Of a stretch of 6,192 bases of DNA, positions 1 through 6,019 are shown piece after piece. A program made the translations under genes and the position numbers. The stretch is taken from positions 1 to 6,192 of the forward strand of contig JAISAX010000840.1 of NCBI GenBank assembly GCA_031266495.1, written 5' to 3'. The notes beneath the pieces are model-generated. The model had not been told where the DNA came from, made no database searches, and was given only the letters and a program-made list of their open reading frames with translations. Positions within the stretch are counted from its first letter, which is position 1. The number at the start of each line of letters is the position of its first letter. Origin of the DNA: Opitutaceae bacterium. Lineage in GTDB: Bacteria > Verrucomicrobiota > Verrucomicrobiae > Opitutales > Opitutaceae.

Positions 1-1005
1 CCCGCCGGGGTTTGGGCCGGGGTTGGGGCGTTTGGTTCCCCCCCCGGCCCCCCCCCCCCCCCCCCCCCCCCCCCCGCCGTCGTCGCCTCTGCTGCTCCGG
101 CCCGGTCACTGCCGTTGCCGATGGCCATCTTCGATTTCCAGACCACCGACCGCTCCCTCGACAAGAAAGGCGCGGAAGTCGCCGCGCTCCTCAACGCCCA
201 TCTTTCGTTGTCGCCCGACGTGTTTCTCGTCGAACGCCAGGAAGTCGAAAAAATTCTTGGAGAACAGGAACTCGGCCTTTCCGGCACCGTCACGCCCGAA
301 TCCGTTGCGAAAGTCGGCGCGCTGGTTGGAGCCAGGGTGCTCGTCACCGGACGCCTGTTTGAATCCGGCGGCAAGGTGTATGCGGTTGCCAAGATCATGA
401 GCGCCGAGACCGGTCGCGTTTACGGCGAGATGGCCACGGCGAAAAATTTCGACGCCATCGAGACCGCCGTCACCGCGCTTTCGGAAAAAATCGTGAAAGT
501 CACGACGACCCGCGCCGACACGTTGGTGGCGAAAGTCGAAACGCAGGAAGCCCGGCTCGAACGCTACAAAAAACTCCTCGGTTCCGCCGCTGCCGATCCC
601 GCTGCCGATCCCGCAAAACTCCCGCCCGTTTATGTAACCATTGCCGAGCAACACCTCGGTCGTCCGGTGATCGATCCGGCGGCGCAGACGGAACTGATGC
701 TTGTGCTCCGGCAGATTGGTTTCGCGGTGTTGTCGGCGGACGAGGCCGCGAACCGCGACGATGTCGTGACGATTACCGGCGAGGCCTTCAGCGAACTCGG
801 CATGCGACGCGGCAACCTCGTCTCGTGCCGTTCGCGGGTGGAGATCACCATAAAAAATGCGTCGGGAAAACTCCTCCTTGCCGACCGCCAGATGGACGTG
901 GCTATCGACATCGCCGAGCACATTGCGGGCAAGAAGGCGCTGGAAAACGCCGCGCTCAAACTCCTCGACCGCATCCTCCCCGCGCTGGCCGCGCAGACGC
1001 GCTGA
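1..1005 (+). CDS. CsgG/LpoB-type exported protein, 5' end unresolved
   Basis: Seen: the frame is open from base 1 to the TGA at 1003-1005. Counting from a TTG at 115 (296 aa), residues 3-110 match the CsgG-type fold: a first strand MAIFDFQTTD, then LLNAHLSLSPDVFLVER, then EVEKILGEQELGLSG, then VAKVGALVGARVLVTGR. A Lys/Glu/Arg-rich linker follows (about 130-165). A second alpha/beta domain (about 169-292) contains GRPVIDPAAQTEL and GEAFSELGMRRGNLVSC. Known: CsgG relatives form outer-membrane secretion channels, and the related LpoB fold activates penicillin-binding proteins; both act at the outer membrane or periplasm. Start: bases 76-102 read AVVASAAPA, like the end of a Sec signal peptide with an Ala-Pro-Ala cleavage site, so the true start should lie upstream. 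There the frame becomes a proline run from the C tract. Starts at TTG 115 or ATG 121 would lack any signal. The lipobox cysteine of CsgG is not visible. Inference: exported envelope protein; the exact role is unknown. Confidence 0.85.
   Translation, partial: PAGVWAGVGAFGSPPGPPPPPPPPPAVVASAAPARSLPLPMAIFDFQTTDRSLDKKGAEVAALLNAHLSLSPDVFLVERQEVEKILGEQELGLSGTVTPESVAKVGALVGARVLVTGRLFESGGKVYAVAKIMSAETGRVYGEMATAKNFDAIETAVTALSEKIVKVTTTRADTLVAKVETQEARLERYKKLLGSAAADPAADPAKLPPVYVTIAEQHLGRPVIDPAAQTELMLVLRQIGFAVLSADEAANRDDVVTITGEAFSELGMRRGNLVSCRSRVEITIKNASGKLLLADRQMDVAIDIAEHIAGKKALENAALKLLDRILPALAAQTR
7..28 (+). other. G-quadruplex-like motif
   Basis: Four runs of 4, 3, 4 and 4 guanines are separated by TTT, CC and TT, which fits the usual four-run, short-loop quadruplex rule. 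It lies 19 bases before the long C tract. It may be a real structure at the 5' end of gene 1 or low-quality contig-end sequence. No promoter can be recognised around it. Confidence 0.45.
48..75 (+). repeat. 28-base poly-C tract
   Basis: This is an uninterrupted run of 28 cytosines; an 8-base C run (38-45) lies just before it, separated by GG. It falls in the frame of gene 1, where it would encode a proline run exactly where the hydrophobic core of a signal peptide is expected. A tract this long is prone to slippage in cells and to miscounting in sequencing, so its length and the frame upstream of it are unreliable. Confidence 0.85.
589..612 (+). repeat. 12-bp perfect tandem duplication
   Basis: GCTGCCGATCCC occurs twice back to back (589-600 and 601-612) inside gene 1. 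It adds one Ala-Ala-Asp-Pro unit to the linker between the CsgG-like module and the C-terminal domain. It keeps the frame and probably only changes linker length. Confidence 0.9.
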
Positions 1006-1092
1006 CCGGCGACCGACCGGTGGCGCGGGCGTCCCGCCCGCTTCCGGAACCGCAGGGGTTTCGCAAGCGAAACCCCTGCAAATGCCGCCGGC
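1005..1092 (+). repeat. Composite palindromic (REP-like) intergenic element
   Basis: Consecutive palindromes fill the space just after gene 1: ACCGG/CCGGT (1005-1009 with 1017-1021); GCGGGCG/CGCCCGC around a 3-base loop (1025-1041); TTCCGGAA (1042-1049); a perfect 13-bp stem with an AA loop (1052-1079); and GCCG-C-CGGC (1084-1092). This dense pattern resembles dispersed REP-type elements. From general recollection, similar GC-rich palindromes are common between genes in Verrucomicrobiota. Only one copy is present here, so its repetitive nature is inferred. Confidence 0.6.
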
Positions 1093-1096
1093 TTTT
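1052..1096 (+). terminator. Strong hairpin, possible terminator of gene 1
   Basis: GCAGGGGTTTCGC (1052-1064) pairs perfectly with GCGAAACCCCTGC (1067-1079) over an AA turn, starting 47 bases after the gene 1 stop. The first run of T (1093-1096, then ATTTATT) is 13 bases beyond the stem, too far for a textbook intrinsic terminator. The hairpin may end transcription or protect the 3' end, or may just be part of the REP-like element. Confidence 0.3.
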
Positions 1097-1225
1097 ATTT
1101 ATTCTCTCTTCGCCAAACCCAATTTTGGCCACACACACACCGCCCCCCCCCCCCCCCCATTTCCAATGCTGAAACATGCCGGTTTTTTCCCCTTCTTTTT
1201 TACTTCGGCTATGTCAGATATCATC
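1093..1225 (+). other. Leader region of the large gene
   Basis: This region contains a weak inverted repeat (GCCAAA 1112-1117 with TTTGGC 1124-1129), the CA/C tract and a 19-base pyrimidine run (1183-1201). In-frame ATGs at 1166 and 1211 precede the one at 1226. None of the three has a purine-rich Shine-Dalgarno sequence. I cannot identify a convincing -35/-10 pair. The promoter of the large gene, if it has its own, should lie here or in the palindromic element upstream. Confidence 0.4.
1130..1158 (+). repeat. (CA)5 repeat followed by a 16-base poly-C tract
   Basis: Five CA units (1130-1139), then CCG, lead into 16 cytosines (1143-1158). The tract ends 7 bases before the first in-frame ATG of the large gene (1166) and 67 bases before the start chosen here (1226). 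Length change here would alter the leader or promoter spacing rather than the frame if translation starts at 1166 or later. Confidence 0.85.
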
Positions 1226-4200
1226 ATGTTTTTGCCTCGTATCACTCACCATCCTGATACCCGTCCCGATACTGGCGTTTCCCGTGCGCGGGATGTCGCC
1301 CTGCGGATTTTTCGTGCTGTAGTTGTGACAGGAAGTTGCCTGTTCGCTGCTCTGTCAGCGTCGCCTTCACCGCTGACACCCGTGGTGGAGCCAACAAAAA
1401 ACATGGACGCGAACGGAATGAAACCAACAGCATCCGTCGGGGATTTTGTCCGTCTTGTCGATGCGGTGAGGTTGGGGGATGTTGCGGGAGTGAGGCGTTT
1501 GCTGGAGTCGGGAATCGACATCAACCGCACCGACGCGCTCGGACAAACGGCGTTGTTTCACGCCTTGCACGCAGGACAAATGGGCGCGGCACGGGTTTTG
1601 GTCGAGGCGGGCACGGATGTCGAAAAAGACATTCGCGGGGAACCGCCGCTTGGCTGGGCCGCCGCGTTCGGAGAGCCGGATGTCGTGCGGTTGATCGCAG
1701 GGCGCAGCGCCGGCGTCAGTCACGGTGGAGCGGATACGCGTGCGTTGCGCGCGCTCGTCATGGCGGCTCGCTGGGGGCGTGTGGACAATTTCCGGGAGTT
1801 GGAAAAAACCGGCGTGGTCTGGAAGGCACGTTCGTCCGGCAAGGGCAATACGGGCATTGGCAAGGGCAAGGACGCCGTCGTTGATGGCGGAGGCGCGGAG
1901 AAGAGCGGGGGCGCGGGAGGAGCGGGAGGCTCGATGTTGGTGTCCGCCGCCGGAGGGGGGAATGTTGACATGATCGGATACATCCTCGCGCAGGGTGTTT
2001 TGTTCGACACGGTGTCCGGGACCGCCGGTGTCACGCCGCTCAACGCCGCCGTGCAGAGCGGGAACAGGGAGGCGGTGCGCGCGTTGCTCGACGCCGGGGC
2101 CGATCCAAATAAGACCGGCGTCGTGGAAACGCCTTCGTGGAATAGAGGGACGCGAACGCCGCTGGCGTTGGCCGTGATTCTCGGCGAGCACGAAATGGCG
2201 GCGCTTCTTCTGGAGCGTGGGGCTGATCCGGGGGCGCAGAAGAACGAGGCGATTTTGTGGGCGGACTTTATGGGTGATGGCGTAATGCGGGACATGCTGC
2301 GCAGGGCGGGTGCGCCGGAGCCGGAGCCGTTTGAGTGGATGGATCGTTTCGGGGCGTCCCGCTGGCGAGTGGAGCCTGGGCGCAGGTTGCGGGAGAGCAG
2401 CGAGGCGCGCGCGCTTGCCTCGCTGGTTTCGTTGCTGCCCGCCGCGAATGGCACGGGCGTTGCGGATGTTGGCGCCGCGACGGCAGGAGGGGGGGGGGAG
2501 GGGGGAACGACGGGGACGACGGGAATGTCGGTGGGATTTTCCCGCGTCACGCGTATTGCGATCATCAACACGGACCCGGGGCTTGGGAATGCGGAGGCAT
2601 TGTTGTCCGCACGCTTGTCGGAGGTCGGAAACGTCACGGTGCTGGAGCGTTCGGAATTGCGCCGGCTGGCGGGGGAGCGTGCGTTGGGCGAGGCCTTCAG
2701 GGGGCCGTCCGCGATTGAAAACATGCGGCTGGGGCGCTTGCTCGGGGCGGATGCGCTGGTGTTCATGCGGCAGTGGCCGGGCGAGAAAAACACGGTGGGC
2801 GAGATCCGGGTGTCGGGAGTGCTGAACGGGCTGGTGGCGGCGCAATGTCAGCAGATTCTGGATACGGGAGACGCGGACAAATGGGCGGTGGAAATGGCGC
2901 GGCATTGCGTGGAGGCGGAGGGAAGGATTTTCACGCTGCCCAAGGAGGCGCGGCTGGTGTCGGTGGCTCCGTTTACGGCGGCGGGCAACACGCCGGAGAC
3001 ACGTGCGCAGGAGCGGATGTTTGCGCTCGGGTTGGCGTTGCGGCTGGCTCGGGCGCCGGGCGTCTTCCTGCTGGAACGCGAGGAGATGTCCCGTTTGCTG
3101 GCAGAGTCGGCAGGGGAGGGGGAAGGATTCCTTGGCGGCAACTGGTTGCTGGATGGCGCGGTGTCACCGTCGCTTAATGCGGGCGAGGCTCCGTCGTTGC
3201 ACCTGGTCTTGACTGCGGGTGGCGTGGTGAGCAGCGGCGGGAATGGCGATGGTGGTGACGCGAAGAAGGCGTTGGTGATTTCCGGGAACGGGCGAACGGA
3301 GACGCAGGTGGTTGACGAGGCTGCCACGCAATTGACCCGGATTATTTCGGGAGAGATTTCCGGCGTGGAGGCCACGCGAAGGTGGGAGGCGAAGGAGGAG
3401 GCGAAGGCGTTTTTTGCGCGCGCGGAAATGTTTTTCCGGCAGCGCATGTGGGAACAGGCGCAGGTGACGGCGGAGGCGGCGTGGGCGCTCGGTTTGCGCG
3501 ATGATCGCGTGACGCGCCTGCGTGTCGAGGCCGCCGTTCGCCGCATGGAGTTTTCGGACAAGTATTTGTCCGGAAATACGGATACCGGGCTATGGGGGAA
3601 GCTGATCGATTCGCAGGGGCGCGTGGCGGCTCGCGCGGCGGTCAGCACGAAGGATCCGGATATGCGCGCGTTGTCGCTGGAGGAGTTTTTTGAGCAGGCG
3701 AATGTTATGCTCGATTTGTTCGAGGGGTCGCTGGAGCGGATCGACTCGGGAGAGGTGACGCAATTCGGGGGGCAGGAGGTTTCGTCCTGGCTCCTTGACG
3801 GGGTGTGGAAAATGGCAACGGTTCCGTTGCAACATGCGTCGGCCTTGTCATGGAAAAGTGAATATGGGATGGAACTGGACGCGTTGCAGGCGCGGTTGAT
3901 GGCCCTGAGCGAGCGGATGATCGGTATCGCGCGGGAGCGGGGGGATTGGTTGCTGCTGCAGTCGCTGGTGGTTTTTCGCTGCAAATTATTGCCGTTCTGG
4001 ACGGACGACGAGAGTGTTTTCCAGTCGGAGGTTTTGCGTTGGTTGAGGGAATCGCGCGAGTGGCCCGCGCCTGGTTCGGCGCACGCGGTGTGGGGGGGAG
4101 TGTTCCGGGTGGCGCGAACCTCATGGCCTGCAAGATCAAAGCCTCAGCGGCTGTATCAGGTCGGGTGGGTGGGACGGGCGGAGGGGCGGTGGTTGAGGCT

Positions 4201-6019
4201 GGCTCGTTTGCTTGCCGCGTCGGAGGCCGATGGCGAGCGGCTTTTCGGACTGGCTTTGCTGGCACCGCGTTATGACGGGCCGGGCCTGGTGCTGGGCTTT
4301 CAACGCGAAAGTCTGCGTCTGTTTGCGAGTCTCGTGGAGAACGATCATGCATGGCCGGGGTCGGTGAGCACGGAGTGTTTCGATTCGTACAGCACGTCTT
4401 ACGAGAGAAGATGGCGGACGTTTACCGCATGGTATAGGGACGCGATCGAAAGAATATTCTGGACGAACGGGGCGGAATTGAGCGCGGGAAACAAATACAG
4501 GATAGGTAGCTGGATATCGTTCGATCTGACGAACCTTGAGCCGCACATGCTGGCAGAGCGGCGCGTGTTTTTTCACGGAAAGATGTTGCGCAGGCTTGCC
4601 TTGATCCGGGAGCGCGGGGAGTTATCCGGTTTCTTTGCCCTGCCGAATTCCCAGTCAGGTTTTTCTTCCGGCGAGTTTGAGCGCATGGGAAAGGAGTTCG
4701 GCGAGCTTTGCGCGTCCCAAAAGGATTTGTTGCGCAGGATGCCTGCGGCGACAAAGGCGCTGGAGGGAGTGACTGCGTATATGGACTCGCAGCGGATCGG
4801 GCTGGAAAATAATGCCGTCAAAATGCGTGGCAGGGAGCGGGCGGCGGAGTTGCCGCCGGTGTCGCTCACGGCACGGTGGTTCCTGGAGTCGCCACCGGAA
4901 AAATGGATTCACGACAGATATTCGAGCAACGATTTCTACAGGCACGACACGCCTCGTGCGTTGCCGCCGCCTTCGGATGACTGGATCCTGAACGGGCTTA
5001 ATCGGGTGTTGACCCGCCTGGATCGCGAGGGCCGGATCGTGGGGCGTATCCGGATGCCGGATGCACCGGCGGCTGGAGCGTTGCGCTTGTGGCGTGTGTG
5101 GCCCAAAACGTTCTCGTCTTTGACGGGTGTTTTGCCAGGGGTTACGGCGGACATGAGCGAGCAGTTTTTCGTTTGCCCCGGCACGGAAATAGCCAGGGTG
5201 GGAGACATATCGAGGTTGATAGATCGGCTCGTCTTGTTCGACAGGAGGAACGGGCTGGCGACGGGCAAGGAGGAGAAGGGGGGGGGAGGGGGCGAATGGC
5301 GGGAACTGCGTTTGCCGCAAACCGTTTCCGATGTGCTCGGGATCAGGATATTCGGGGAGAAGATTTTCTTTTCGTGGCTTAACAATCCGGAAGCTGCGAA
5401 GCGAACGGATGATGATGTCCGCGCGTTGCTGCGGGGTGAGCCGGTTTTCGGAGTCTCGGAATATGATGTGGCGACAGGGAAGTTTTCCCTGATCGCAAGC
5501 AGCAGGCGCGAACCGGCGTTGTCGCCGGCGGATAATGTGGCGCATGGGTATTTTGTGATACTGAGATTGTCGGAACACGAGTGGACGACGTCCGGGCAGC
5601 GGAAATTTGTTTACGACACGCGGGATGGAGCGTGGCGAGCGGCAAGCGAGGACGAGGCGCAGCGATTATGGCGGACAGATAGTTTCGACGGGCGACGATG
5701 GCGTCCCGCGAAATCGCAGTCGGAACAGCAATCGTGGGGAGTGTCGAGTCGCCGGAACACGCTGGTGCTTTCCGGGAACAGGGGCGACCGGTCCACGCCG
5801 GATGTCGTGATCCCTCTGGCGCTGGATGACCGTGATGTGGCGCATCATTTCGCGGGAGCACCGGATTTTACGCGCGATTATGAGGTATTGAAAAAAGCGG
5901 ATCGTTTGTCTCCGGTTGTAATGCCTGGAGGGATACTGTTGCAGCGCGGTCCGGTGTATTACTGGTTGCCGGACGAACGGATCGAAGAAGCGTGCCGCCG
6001 CGTCATTCCGGCTCCATGA
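1226..6019 (+). CDS. Large exported ankyrin-repeat protein with two degenerate CsgG-like modules
   Basis: Seen, counted from ATG 1226 (1,597 aa): a long basic n-region, a hydrophobic stretch (about 31-43) and LSA-SPSP around 43-49 look like a Sec signal peptide; Cys38 is in a poor lipobox (TGSC). Ankyrin-type repeats span about 71-362 (LLESGIDIN, VLVEAGTDV, LLDAGADPN, LLLERGADP), interrupted by a Gly/Lys insertion (205-235). A Gly/Thr linker (420-433) precedes module A (443-540: TRIAIINTD, VTVLERSELRRLAGERALG, LGRLLGADALVF) and module B (576-710: LVSVAPFT, VFLLEREEMSRLL), both like the neighbour's CsgG-like module. Residues about 720-1120 look helical; about 1250-1597 look beta-rich with no recognised family. 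Known: ankyrin repeats bind proteins. Inference: an envelope or secreted binding protein working with gene 1; the function is unknown. Starts at 1166 (1,617 aa) and 1211 are equally possible. A start at 1403, with GGAG 12 bases upstream, would remove the signal. The frame is open back to 857 only because it overlaps gene 1. Confidence 0.88.
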   Translation: MFLPRITHHPDTRPDTGVSRARDVALRIFRAVVVTGSCLFAALSASPSPLTPVVEPTKNMDANGMKPTASVGDFVRLVDAVRLGDVAGVRRLLESGIDINRTDALGQTALFHALHAGQMGAARVLVEAGTDVEKDIRGEPPLGWAAAFGEPDVVRLIAGRSAGVSHGGADTRALRALVMAARWGRVDNFRELEKTGVVWKARSSGKGNTGIGKGKDAVVDGGGAEKSGGAGGAGGSMLVSAAGGGNVDMIGYILAQGVLFDTVSGTAGVTPLNAAVQSGNREAVRALLDAGADPNKTGVVETPSWNRGTRTPLALAVILGEHEMAALLLERGADPGAQKNEAILWADFMGDGVMRDMLRRAGAPEPEPFEWMDRFGASRWRVEPGRRLRESSEARALASLVSLLPAANGTGVADVGAATAGGGGEGGTTGTTGMSVGFSRVTRIAIINTDPGLGNAEALLSARLSEVGNVTVLERSELRRLAGERALGEAFRGPSAIENMRLGRLLGADALVFMRQWPGEKNTVGEIRVSGVLNGLVAAQCQQILDTGDADKWAVEMARHCVEAEGRIFTLPKEARLVSVAPFTAAGNTPETRAQERMFALGLALRLARAPGVFLLEREEMSRLLAESAGEGEGFLGGNWLLDGAVSPSLNAGEAPSLHLVLTAGGVVSSGGNGDGGDAKKALVISGNGRTETQVVDEAATQLTRIISGEISGVEATRRWEAKEEAKAFFARAEMFFRQRMWEQAQVTAEAAWALGLRDDRVTRLRVEAAVRRMEFSDKYLSGNTDTGLWGKLIDSQGRVAARAAVSTKDPDMRALSLEEFFEQANVMLDLFEGSLERIDSGEVTQFGGQEVSSWLLDGVWKMATVPLQHASALSWKSEYGMELDALQARLMALSERMIGIARERGDWLLLQSLVVFRCKLLPFWTDDESVFQSEVLRWLRESREWPAPGSAHAVWGGVFRVARTSWPARSKPQRLYQVGWVGRAEGRWLRLARLLAASEADGERLFGLALLAPRYDGPGLVLGFQRESLRLFASLVENDHAWPGSVSTECFDSYSTSYERRWRTFTAWYRDAIERIFWTNGAELSAGNKYRIGSWISFDLTNLEPHMLAERRVFFHGKMLRRLALIRERGELSGFFALPNSQSGFSSGEFERMGKEFGELCASQKDLLRRMPAATKALEGVTAYMDSQRIGLENNAVKMRGRERAAELPPVSLTARWFLESPPEKWIHDRYSSNDFYRHDTPRALPPPSDDWILNGLNRVLTRLDREGRIVGRIRMPDAPAAGALRLWRVWPKTFSSLTGVLPGVTADMSEQFFVCPGTEIARVGDISRLIDRLVLFDRRNGLATGKEEKGGGGGEWRELRLPQTVSDVLGIRIFGEKIFFSWLNNPEAAKRTDDDVRALLRGEPVFGVSEYDVATGKFSLIASSRREPALSPADNVAHGYFVILRLSEHEWTTSGQRKFVYDTRDGAWRAASEDEAQRLWRTDSFDGRRWRPAKSQSEQQSWGVSSRRNTLVLSGNRGDRSTPDVVIPLALDDRDVAHHFAGAPDFTRDYEVLKKADRLSPVVMPGGILLQRGPVYYWLPDERIEEACRRVIPAP
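1838..1869 (+). repeat. 11-bp direct repeat at 21-bp period in the ankyrin insertion
   Basis: GGCAAGGGCAA occurs at 1838-1848 and again at 1859-1869, exactly seven codons apart. It encodes the GKGN/GKGK part of a low-complexity Gly/Lys segment. The segment continues as a Gly/Ala-rich stretch to about 1930 and interrupts the ankyrin repeats, consistent with expansion by slippage. Confidence 0.8.
2489..2505 (+). repeat. In-frame G10-A-G6 tract
   Basis: Ten guanines (2489-2498), one A, then six more (2500-2505) encode a Gly-rich linker between the ankyrin region and module A. Gaining one G would move translation into a frame that stops at 2718; losing one, into a frame that stops at 2825. Either product would be roughly 500-530 aa, with ankyrin repeats but no intact downstream domains. 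Confidence 0.85.
5278..5292 (+). repeat. In-frame G9-A-G5 tract
   Basis: Nine guanines (5278-5286), one A and five more (5288-5292) encode a five-glycine loop in the beta-rich C-terminal region. The layout copies the tract at 2489. A one-base gain would end translation at 5382, and a one-base loss at 5492, removing about the last 175-240 residues. Confidence 0.85.

Follow-up and report, generated by a model that had tools for sequence, protein, structure and literature searches.

The window, that is, the whole stretch of 6,192 nucleotides that was analysed, carries two genes on the forward strand, located at the positions given in the original prediction (the motif RIAIINTD lies at residue 443 of the gene 2 product, numbered from the ATG at position 1226). 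Features of the two genes are summarized in Table 1. The 5′ end of gene 1 is missing, having been cut off by the contig start, and since the contig begins inside this gene, no sigma factor gene is present in the window. A tRNA search of the whole window detected none. Two homopolymeric tracts, a run of 28 C at positions 48-75 (within gene 1, near the contig start) and a run of 16 C at positions 1143-1158 (intergenic), are either possible slippage sites or possible artefacts of assembly. The gene 1 frame 5′ of the longer run bears no resemblance to a signal peptide. Inspection by eye revealed signal peptides in two relatives of gene 2 (P0002 and P0003) that are clearer than that of gene 2 itself, and from signal peptides recognized in this way the proteins encoded by gene 1 and gene 2 are probably exported.

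Table 1. Features distinguished in the 6,192-nt window
Feature	Position	Strand	Basis or remark
Gene 1, small CsgG-fold protein	1..1005	+	ORF ending at 1005; PF03783 33.4 bits
Gene 1 N-domain, TolB-N/CsgG/LpoB-like fold	103..513	+	
Gene 1 E-R-x8-E core motif	232..264	+	Present in 11/11 aligned gene 1 rows
Gene 1 C-domain, second domain of the same fold class	544..1002	+	
Gene 2, giant ankyrin / tandem CsgG-module protein, 1597 aa, complete	1226..6019	+	ORF; start as in database protein P0001
Gene 2 probable signal peptide region	1226..1381	+	By eye: basic, hydrophobic and small-residue stretches
Gene 2 ankyrin repeats	1460..2323	+	Pfam Ank_2 1.1e-27, Ank_4 5.8e-19; end of last repeat by eye
Gene 2 CsgG-like module 1	2537..2929	+	
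Module 1 E-R-x8-E core motif	2645..2677	+	18/19 aligned rows
Gene 2 CsgG-like module 2	2945..3364	+	
Module 2 E-R-x8-E core motif	3074..3106	+	18/19 aligned rows
Gene 2 TPR-like and helical solenoid region	3389..4846	+	Predicted helices, pLDDT mostly 70-90 with low stretches; module alignment reaches its start
Gene 2 C-terminal beta-propeller-like region	4850..5980	+	
Conserved SSRRxPxxSxxD stretch inside the propeller-like region	5498..5533	+	S, R, R, S and D columns invariant (7- and 10-sequence alignments)

A CsgG-type module shared by the small and the giant protein

The proposal that both genes encode a common CsgG-like module is supported by profiles and by predicted structures. Both proteins pass the cut-off (20.8 bits) of the Pfam CsgG family (PF03783), gene 1 with 33.4 bits, in an alignment spanning only positions 32-98 of the 210-position profile, and gene 2 with 21.1 bits. 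In profile-profile searches, the E-values of which are those of single comparisons, the N-domain of gene 1 matched module 1 of gene 2 with a probability of 97.5% (E 5.9e-12, 105 columns) and module 2 with 94.8% (E 5.5e-8, 43 columns), compared with at most 1.5% for 10 control pairs (the ankyrin, TPR, middle and C-terminal parts of gene 2 and the C-domain of gene 1). Wider alignments (hhalign) gave 98.4% for module 1 and 96.4% for module 2, with five controls at or below 1.0%, and 100 column shuffles of module 1 scored no higher than 17.5, versus 86.1 for the real profile.

The CsgG-like part of gene 2, originally taken to be one region, is present, but consists of two modules (residues ~438-572 and 573-712). 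Their description as degraded copies is apt for the overall sequence, as only three of the seven members of the gene 2 family are recognized by Pfam CsgG (at E 0.1), but not for the E-R-x8-E core, which is kept in all 11 gene 1 sequences and in 18 of 19 sequences for either module; a similar motif is presumably present in CsgG of E. coli. In the profile comparison, module 1 scores nearer to gene 1 than to module 2, which makes a duplicated ancestor of gene 1 and the gene 2 modules plausible.

The predicted structures of both proteins, which are single-chain models (that of gene 2 being only fair, with a mean pLDDT of 68 and a pTM of 0.49), agree with the shared module. The closest fold matches include TolB, FlgT and LpoB, and CsgG chains are among the fold matches of the gene 1 C-domain. 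In the gene 1 model the strands are predicted to be joined by short turns, with neither membrane hairpins nor a propeller. A Foldseek search with the gene 2 model gave no match at E ≤0.001. Profile searches of solved chains produced weak matches only (E ≥0.005), and FlgT, LpoB, PelC and GNA1162 were not among the matches listed. Within NCBIfam, gene 2 matched ankyrin-type models and one channel model only, all far under the cut-off, and gene 1 had a single match, also under the cut-off. LpoB (PF13036) was absent from the Pfam matches of the window proteins up to an E-value of 1; one gene 1 orthologue reached 14.4 bits with this model, below the cut-off of 22.3.

Among 7994 database candidates scored, seven proteins, including the window's own, share the architecture of gene 2, the other six showing 29-36% identity. 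Ankyrin repeats occur in all seven. A scan of genome contigs with gene 2 alone as the query yielded no relative, and a scan with the alignment of the gene 2 family yielded three loci. Locus L003 was dropped as a gene 2 relative, its match being confined to the ankyrin part.

Gene order, co-occurrence and divergence in other genomes

The surroundings of gene 1 were examined at 42 loci from 40 genomes (13 from the family search and 27 from the class search); G549, G486, G294 and G564, with matches near contig ends, are omitted from the neighbour table, and G001 and G048 are counted once. Gene picking based on GC content misplaces starts (L044, L045 and L083), so the counts rest on six-frame profile matches. 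A same-strand CsgG-like module beginning within 1.5 kb after gene 1, in a frame of at least 400 aa, was found at 35/42 loci with any profile, at 34 with the iterated giant profile and at 32 with non-iterated profiles. At 21 of the 42 loci the downstream match is at least 200 aa long and covers both modules. These figures supersede a count of 36/42 for which the limit was 6.5 kb and the iterated profile had been trained on these very loci; in that count the matches of L039 fell on later genes and that of L077 lay 3.2 kb away. Matches on the opposite strand amounted to one per profile tried. The window itself has the arrangement that defines the pair, in which a gene 1 orthologue precedes the gene of a large protein containing CsgG-like modules.

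The gap between gene 1 and the downstream gene is no longer than 40 nt at 25/42 loci; it was measured to the first same-strand frame of at least 500 aa, which is not the matched protein in L077, L044 and L083, the 25 short gaps being unaffected. The giant is placed 3.2 kb downstream of gene 1 in L077, with a gene for a Sel1-repeat protein in between, and upstream of gene 1, on the same contig and strand, in L079, L088 and L091. No giant was found in L096, which has a weak gene 1 match. A second, divergent gene 1-like gene follows the giant in L039 (G112:C20:9418-10293), which suggests a local duplication of the small partner.

With the ankyrin part removed, the gene 2 profile matches 18 of 25 giants of other gene 1 loci (whole-sequence E 3e-55 to 1.7e-7), mostly across modules 1 and 2 and the start of the TPR region, and in many cases also at the SRRxP stretch; the SSRRxPxxSxxD stretch is the second match region of this profile in giants of other genomes. 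The same profile gave no match in the giants of L032, L037, L038, L040, L071, L076 and L080, all seven of which are reached by profiles built later.

The claimed neighbourhood of the two genes is thus common in a broader form, a large CsgG-module protein directly after gene 1 at 35/42 loci, but is only partial at the level of orthologues. Direct adjacency was observed in one of the four gene 2 genomes of the family, G211, where the C-terminal half of gene 1 is followed, after 24 nt, by gene 2 (interrupted in this genome). In G106 the orthologue is also downstream of gene 1, but at a distance of ~16 kb, and in G001 and G002 (loci L001 and L002) the two genes are on different contigs; adjacency is therefore not required. 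A row of giants, all on the strand of gene 1, comes after this gene in G106 (3193-3229 kb; L032, L030 and L031), with large proteins of 1417, 1167, 1457, 1541, 2092 and 1494 aa and two small ones, one weakly alpha/beta-hydrolase-like and one L7/L12-like. Two relatives of gene 2 lie within this row. In L001 and L002 the ankyrin giant gene adjoins sufT of opposite orientation, an odd site for the gene of an envelope protein; the NCBIfam score of the L001 SufT is 201.8 bits, just below the cut-off of 202.6. According to NCBIfam, sufD and sufB follow on the other side of the giant gene in L002.

Upstream of gene 1, profiles iterated on the same loci in which they were counted detected a secreted-looking protein, designated X, at 36/42 loci, an anti-sigma-like membrane protein at 25/42 and an ECF sigma factor at 22/42 (22/38 among loci whose upstream sequence exceeds 2.5 kb). 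The identity of the ECF sigma factor was confirmed by Pfam/NCBIfam in L039 and L092. Protein X (~270 aa; positions 3000-3839 in L039), the gene of which immediately precedes gene 1, matched nothing in Pfam (L039) or NCBIfam (L092); it was detected at more gene 1 loci than the sigma factor.

The two genes also occur together. In the family of G001 (a Rariglobus MAG), comprising 252 genomes, gene 2 was found in four and gene 1 in 13, including all four gene 2 genomes (p 4e-6); among the 384 genomes of the class sample, gene 1 was present in 33, giant modules in 25 and both in 24 (p 1e-29); and in the phylum sample of 337 genomes, gene 1 was found in 34 of the 38 giant-bearing genomes (p 9e-28), all of these p values ignoring the kinship of the genomes and taking no account of their completeness, and some genomes being shared by the class and phylum samples. 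Over the whole phylum sample, gene 1 was detected in 55 genomes at E 1e-15 (62 at 1e-10). In 17 or more of the 38 genomes with a giant, the gene 1 match is followed within 350 nt by the start of the giant match. Four of the 38 giant-bearing genomes had no gene 1 at E 1e-15. At the same threshold, nine of the 33 gene 1 genomes of the class sample had no giant, and five of these nine carry a more divergent one (L043, L080, L083, L086 and L090).

The window's gene 1 and the gene 1 row of G106 (L032) share 91% identity, whereas the best relative of gene 2 in that genome shows only 32% identity. Median identities over 14 pairs of loci, taken from 22 with gene 1 identity of at least 60% (a choice that favours a high gene 1 value), were 69% for gene 1, 44% for the anti-sigma-like protein, 40% for X and 33% for the giant, and 61% for the sigma factor (13 pairs), making the giant the most divergent of the five proteins compared. 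The eight pairs left out were five with L068 plus L072-L074, L072-L080 and L037-L039.

Ankyrin repeats were detected in eight of the 34 downstream proteins scanned, which include one non-giant (the Sel1 protein of L077), and CsgG at E 0.01 in 15 of them. The repeats are N-terminal in gene 2 and C-terminal in most other ankyrin-bearing giants: the best-matching stretch is found towards the C-terminus in L039, L043, L044, L045, L046 and L090, and precedes the modules in L085 and L087, the order also seen in the window. The joining of the module to ankyrin repeats, which the original prediction could relate to no described family, is therefore real and recurs in both orders, and ankyrin was probably gained more than once among the giants. 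EF-hand matches were noted at the C-terminus of the L080 and L072 giants, that of L072 falling under the Pfam cut-off.

Proposed role of the pair

We propose, with a probability of roughly 0.6, that the pair constitutes a sigma-controlled envelope complex, with a conserved small protein and a rapidly diverging giant together serving as an assembly or sensing scaffold. The proposal builds on what was obtained by computation, namely the modules common to both proteins, their architecture, a conserved order of the genes and their co-occurrence; signal peptides seen by eye, the fold class and the sigma context suggest its location in the envelope, its control by the sigma factor and the use of the variable parts as binding surfaces. 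The window would then represent two genes of a Verrucomicrobiota operon. The core pair would be formed by the gene 1 product, with two CsgG/TolB-N-fold domains, and a giant with two tandem modules, a TPR/helical solenoid and a propeller-like domain, both proteins being exported. An envelope signal, acting through the ECF sigma factor and the membrane anti-sigma-like protein (upstream in about half of the related loci), would switch the operon on, and the small protein would dock on the giant via the CsgG-fold modules in the periplasm. The propeller, the solenoid and the optional ankyrin repeats of the giant may provide a rapidly changing surface to which an envelope or external partner binds. 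Analogy with TolB, FlgT, LpoB and PelC suggests that such a scaffold would be non-enzymatic.

More tentatively, a phylum-wide machine switched by the ECF sigma factor can be imagined, with the small CsgG/PelC-like protein as a ring or platform that holds interchangeable giant receptors. The giants of such a machine would diversify fast, repeatedly gaining ankyrin repeats, EF-hands or extra copies (several in the G106 row), and these additions might bind different envelope or external targets.

It is conceivable, if unlikely, that the two proteins are operon neighbours that make no physical contact, i.e. products of jointly regulated envelope-stress genes that both use an old, common fold but work separately. 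The CsgG/TolB-N fold is widespread in envelope proteins, the genes are apart in G001 and G002, and both structure predictions are of single chains; the usually immediate adjacency, the co-occurrence across the class and phylum samples and the better conservation of the small partner than of the giant speak against this reading. Somewhat less probable is a TolB- or LpoB-like regulator, in which the pair would couple to the outer membrane or to peptidoglycan synthesis, with the ankyrin and propeller parts binding cell-wall enzymes. The presence of TolB, FlgT and LpoB among the fold matches and the combination of module and propeller in the giant are consistent with this, but ~500 mostly helical residues are predicted between the modules and the propeller-like part, which in TolB are directly joined.

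That the ankyrin giants are surface or secreted proteins contacting eukaryotic hosts or neighbouring cells seems doubtful. The ankyrin repeats and the divergence of the giant would fit such a role, as would the 91% identity of gene 1 to that of Opitutaceae bacterium TAV5, a termite-gut isolate, but no ankyrin match was found in 26 of the 34 downstream proteins scanned. Finally, a curli-like secretion system, with gene 1 as a CsgG-like outer-membrane pore and the giant as an accessory protein or cargo, is suggested by the PF03783 match, by public names such as "curli assembly protein CsgG" and by the CsgG chains matching the C-domain, but is highly improbable, given the partial profile coverage of gene 1, its predicted short turns in place of membrane hairpins and the lack of CsgE and CsgF matches (E 0.001; E. 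coli control positive) in all 13 gene 1 genomes of the family, so that the secretion system originally considered is, in the curli sense, unsupported.

Domains of the CsgG/TolB-N fold occupy key positions in the Gram-negative envelope, in the curli, Pel, LPS export and Tol-Pal systems and in the flagellar rings. Proteins of all these systems appear among the fold matches of the predicted structures. A small/giant pair with this fold, often encoded after an ECF sigma factor, offers a testable entry into the envelope of Verrucomicrobiota, a phylum across which relatives of the pair are found repeatedly, in many cases close to a stress-type sigma factor. It also gives a context to at least 1860 database proteins matching the gene 1 profile, many of them unnamed, hypothetical or called "curli CsgG". 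How scaffolds of this kind diversify is illustrated by the fusion of the fold to ankyrin repeats on either side.

Relation to known systems

No account of such a small/giant system was found among the literature matches listed, and two papers (PMC8159010 and PMC11309003) treat CsgG and ankyrin separately. Ankyrin effectors, represented by the NCBIfam Dot/Icm T4SS Ank models, resemble gene 2 in the ankyrin part only (best score 45.5 bits, cut-off 600); gene 2 differs from them in its probable signal peptide, and the remainder of the protein is unrelated. FlgT of the flagellar H ring, LpoB, PelC and GNA1162 differ from the pair in both architecture and context.

The likeness to the CsgG family lies in gene 1 and module 1 of gene 2, which pass the Pfam cut-off and belong to the same fold class. 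From curli CsgG itself the pair is set apart by the CsgE/CsgF result, by a gene 1 model without membrane hairpins, by its tandem domains and by its giant multi-domain partner. TolB, in which the propeller directly follows a single N-domain, is unlike the giant in the latter's two modules, ankyrin repeats, ECF-sigma context and long, mostly helical stretch predicted before the propeller-like part. It is like the giant in that its N-terminal domain has the TolB-N fold and in that both pair such a domain with a propeller or, in the giant, a predicted propeller-like region.
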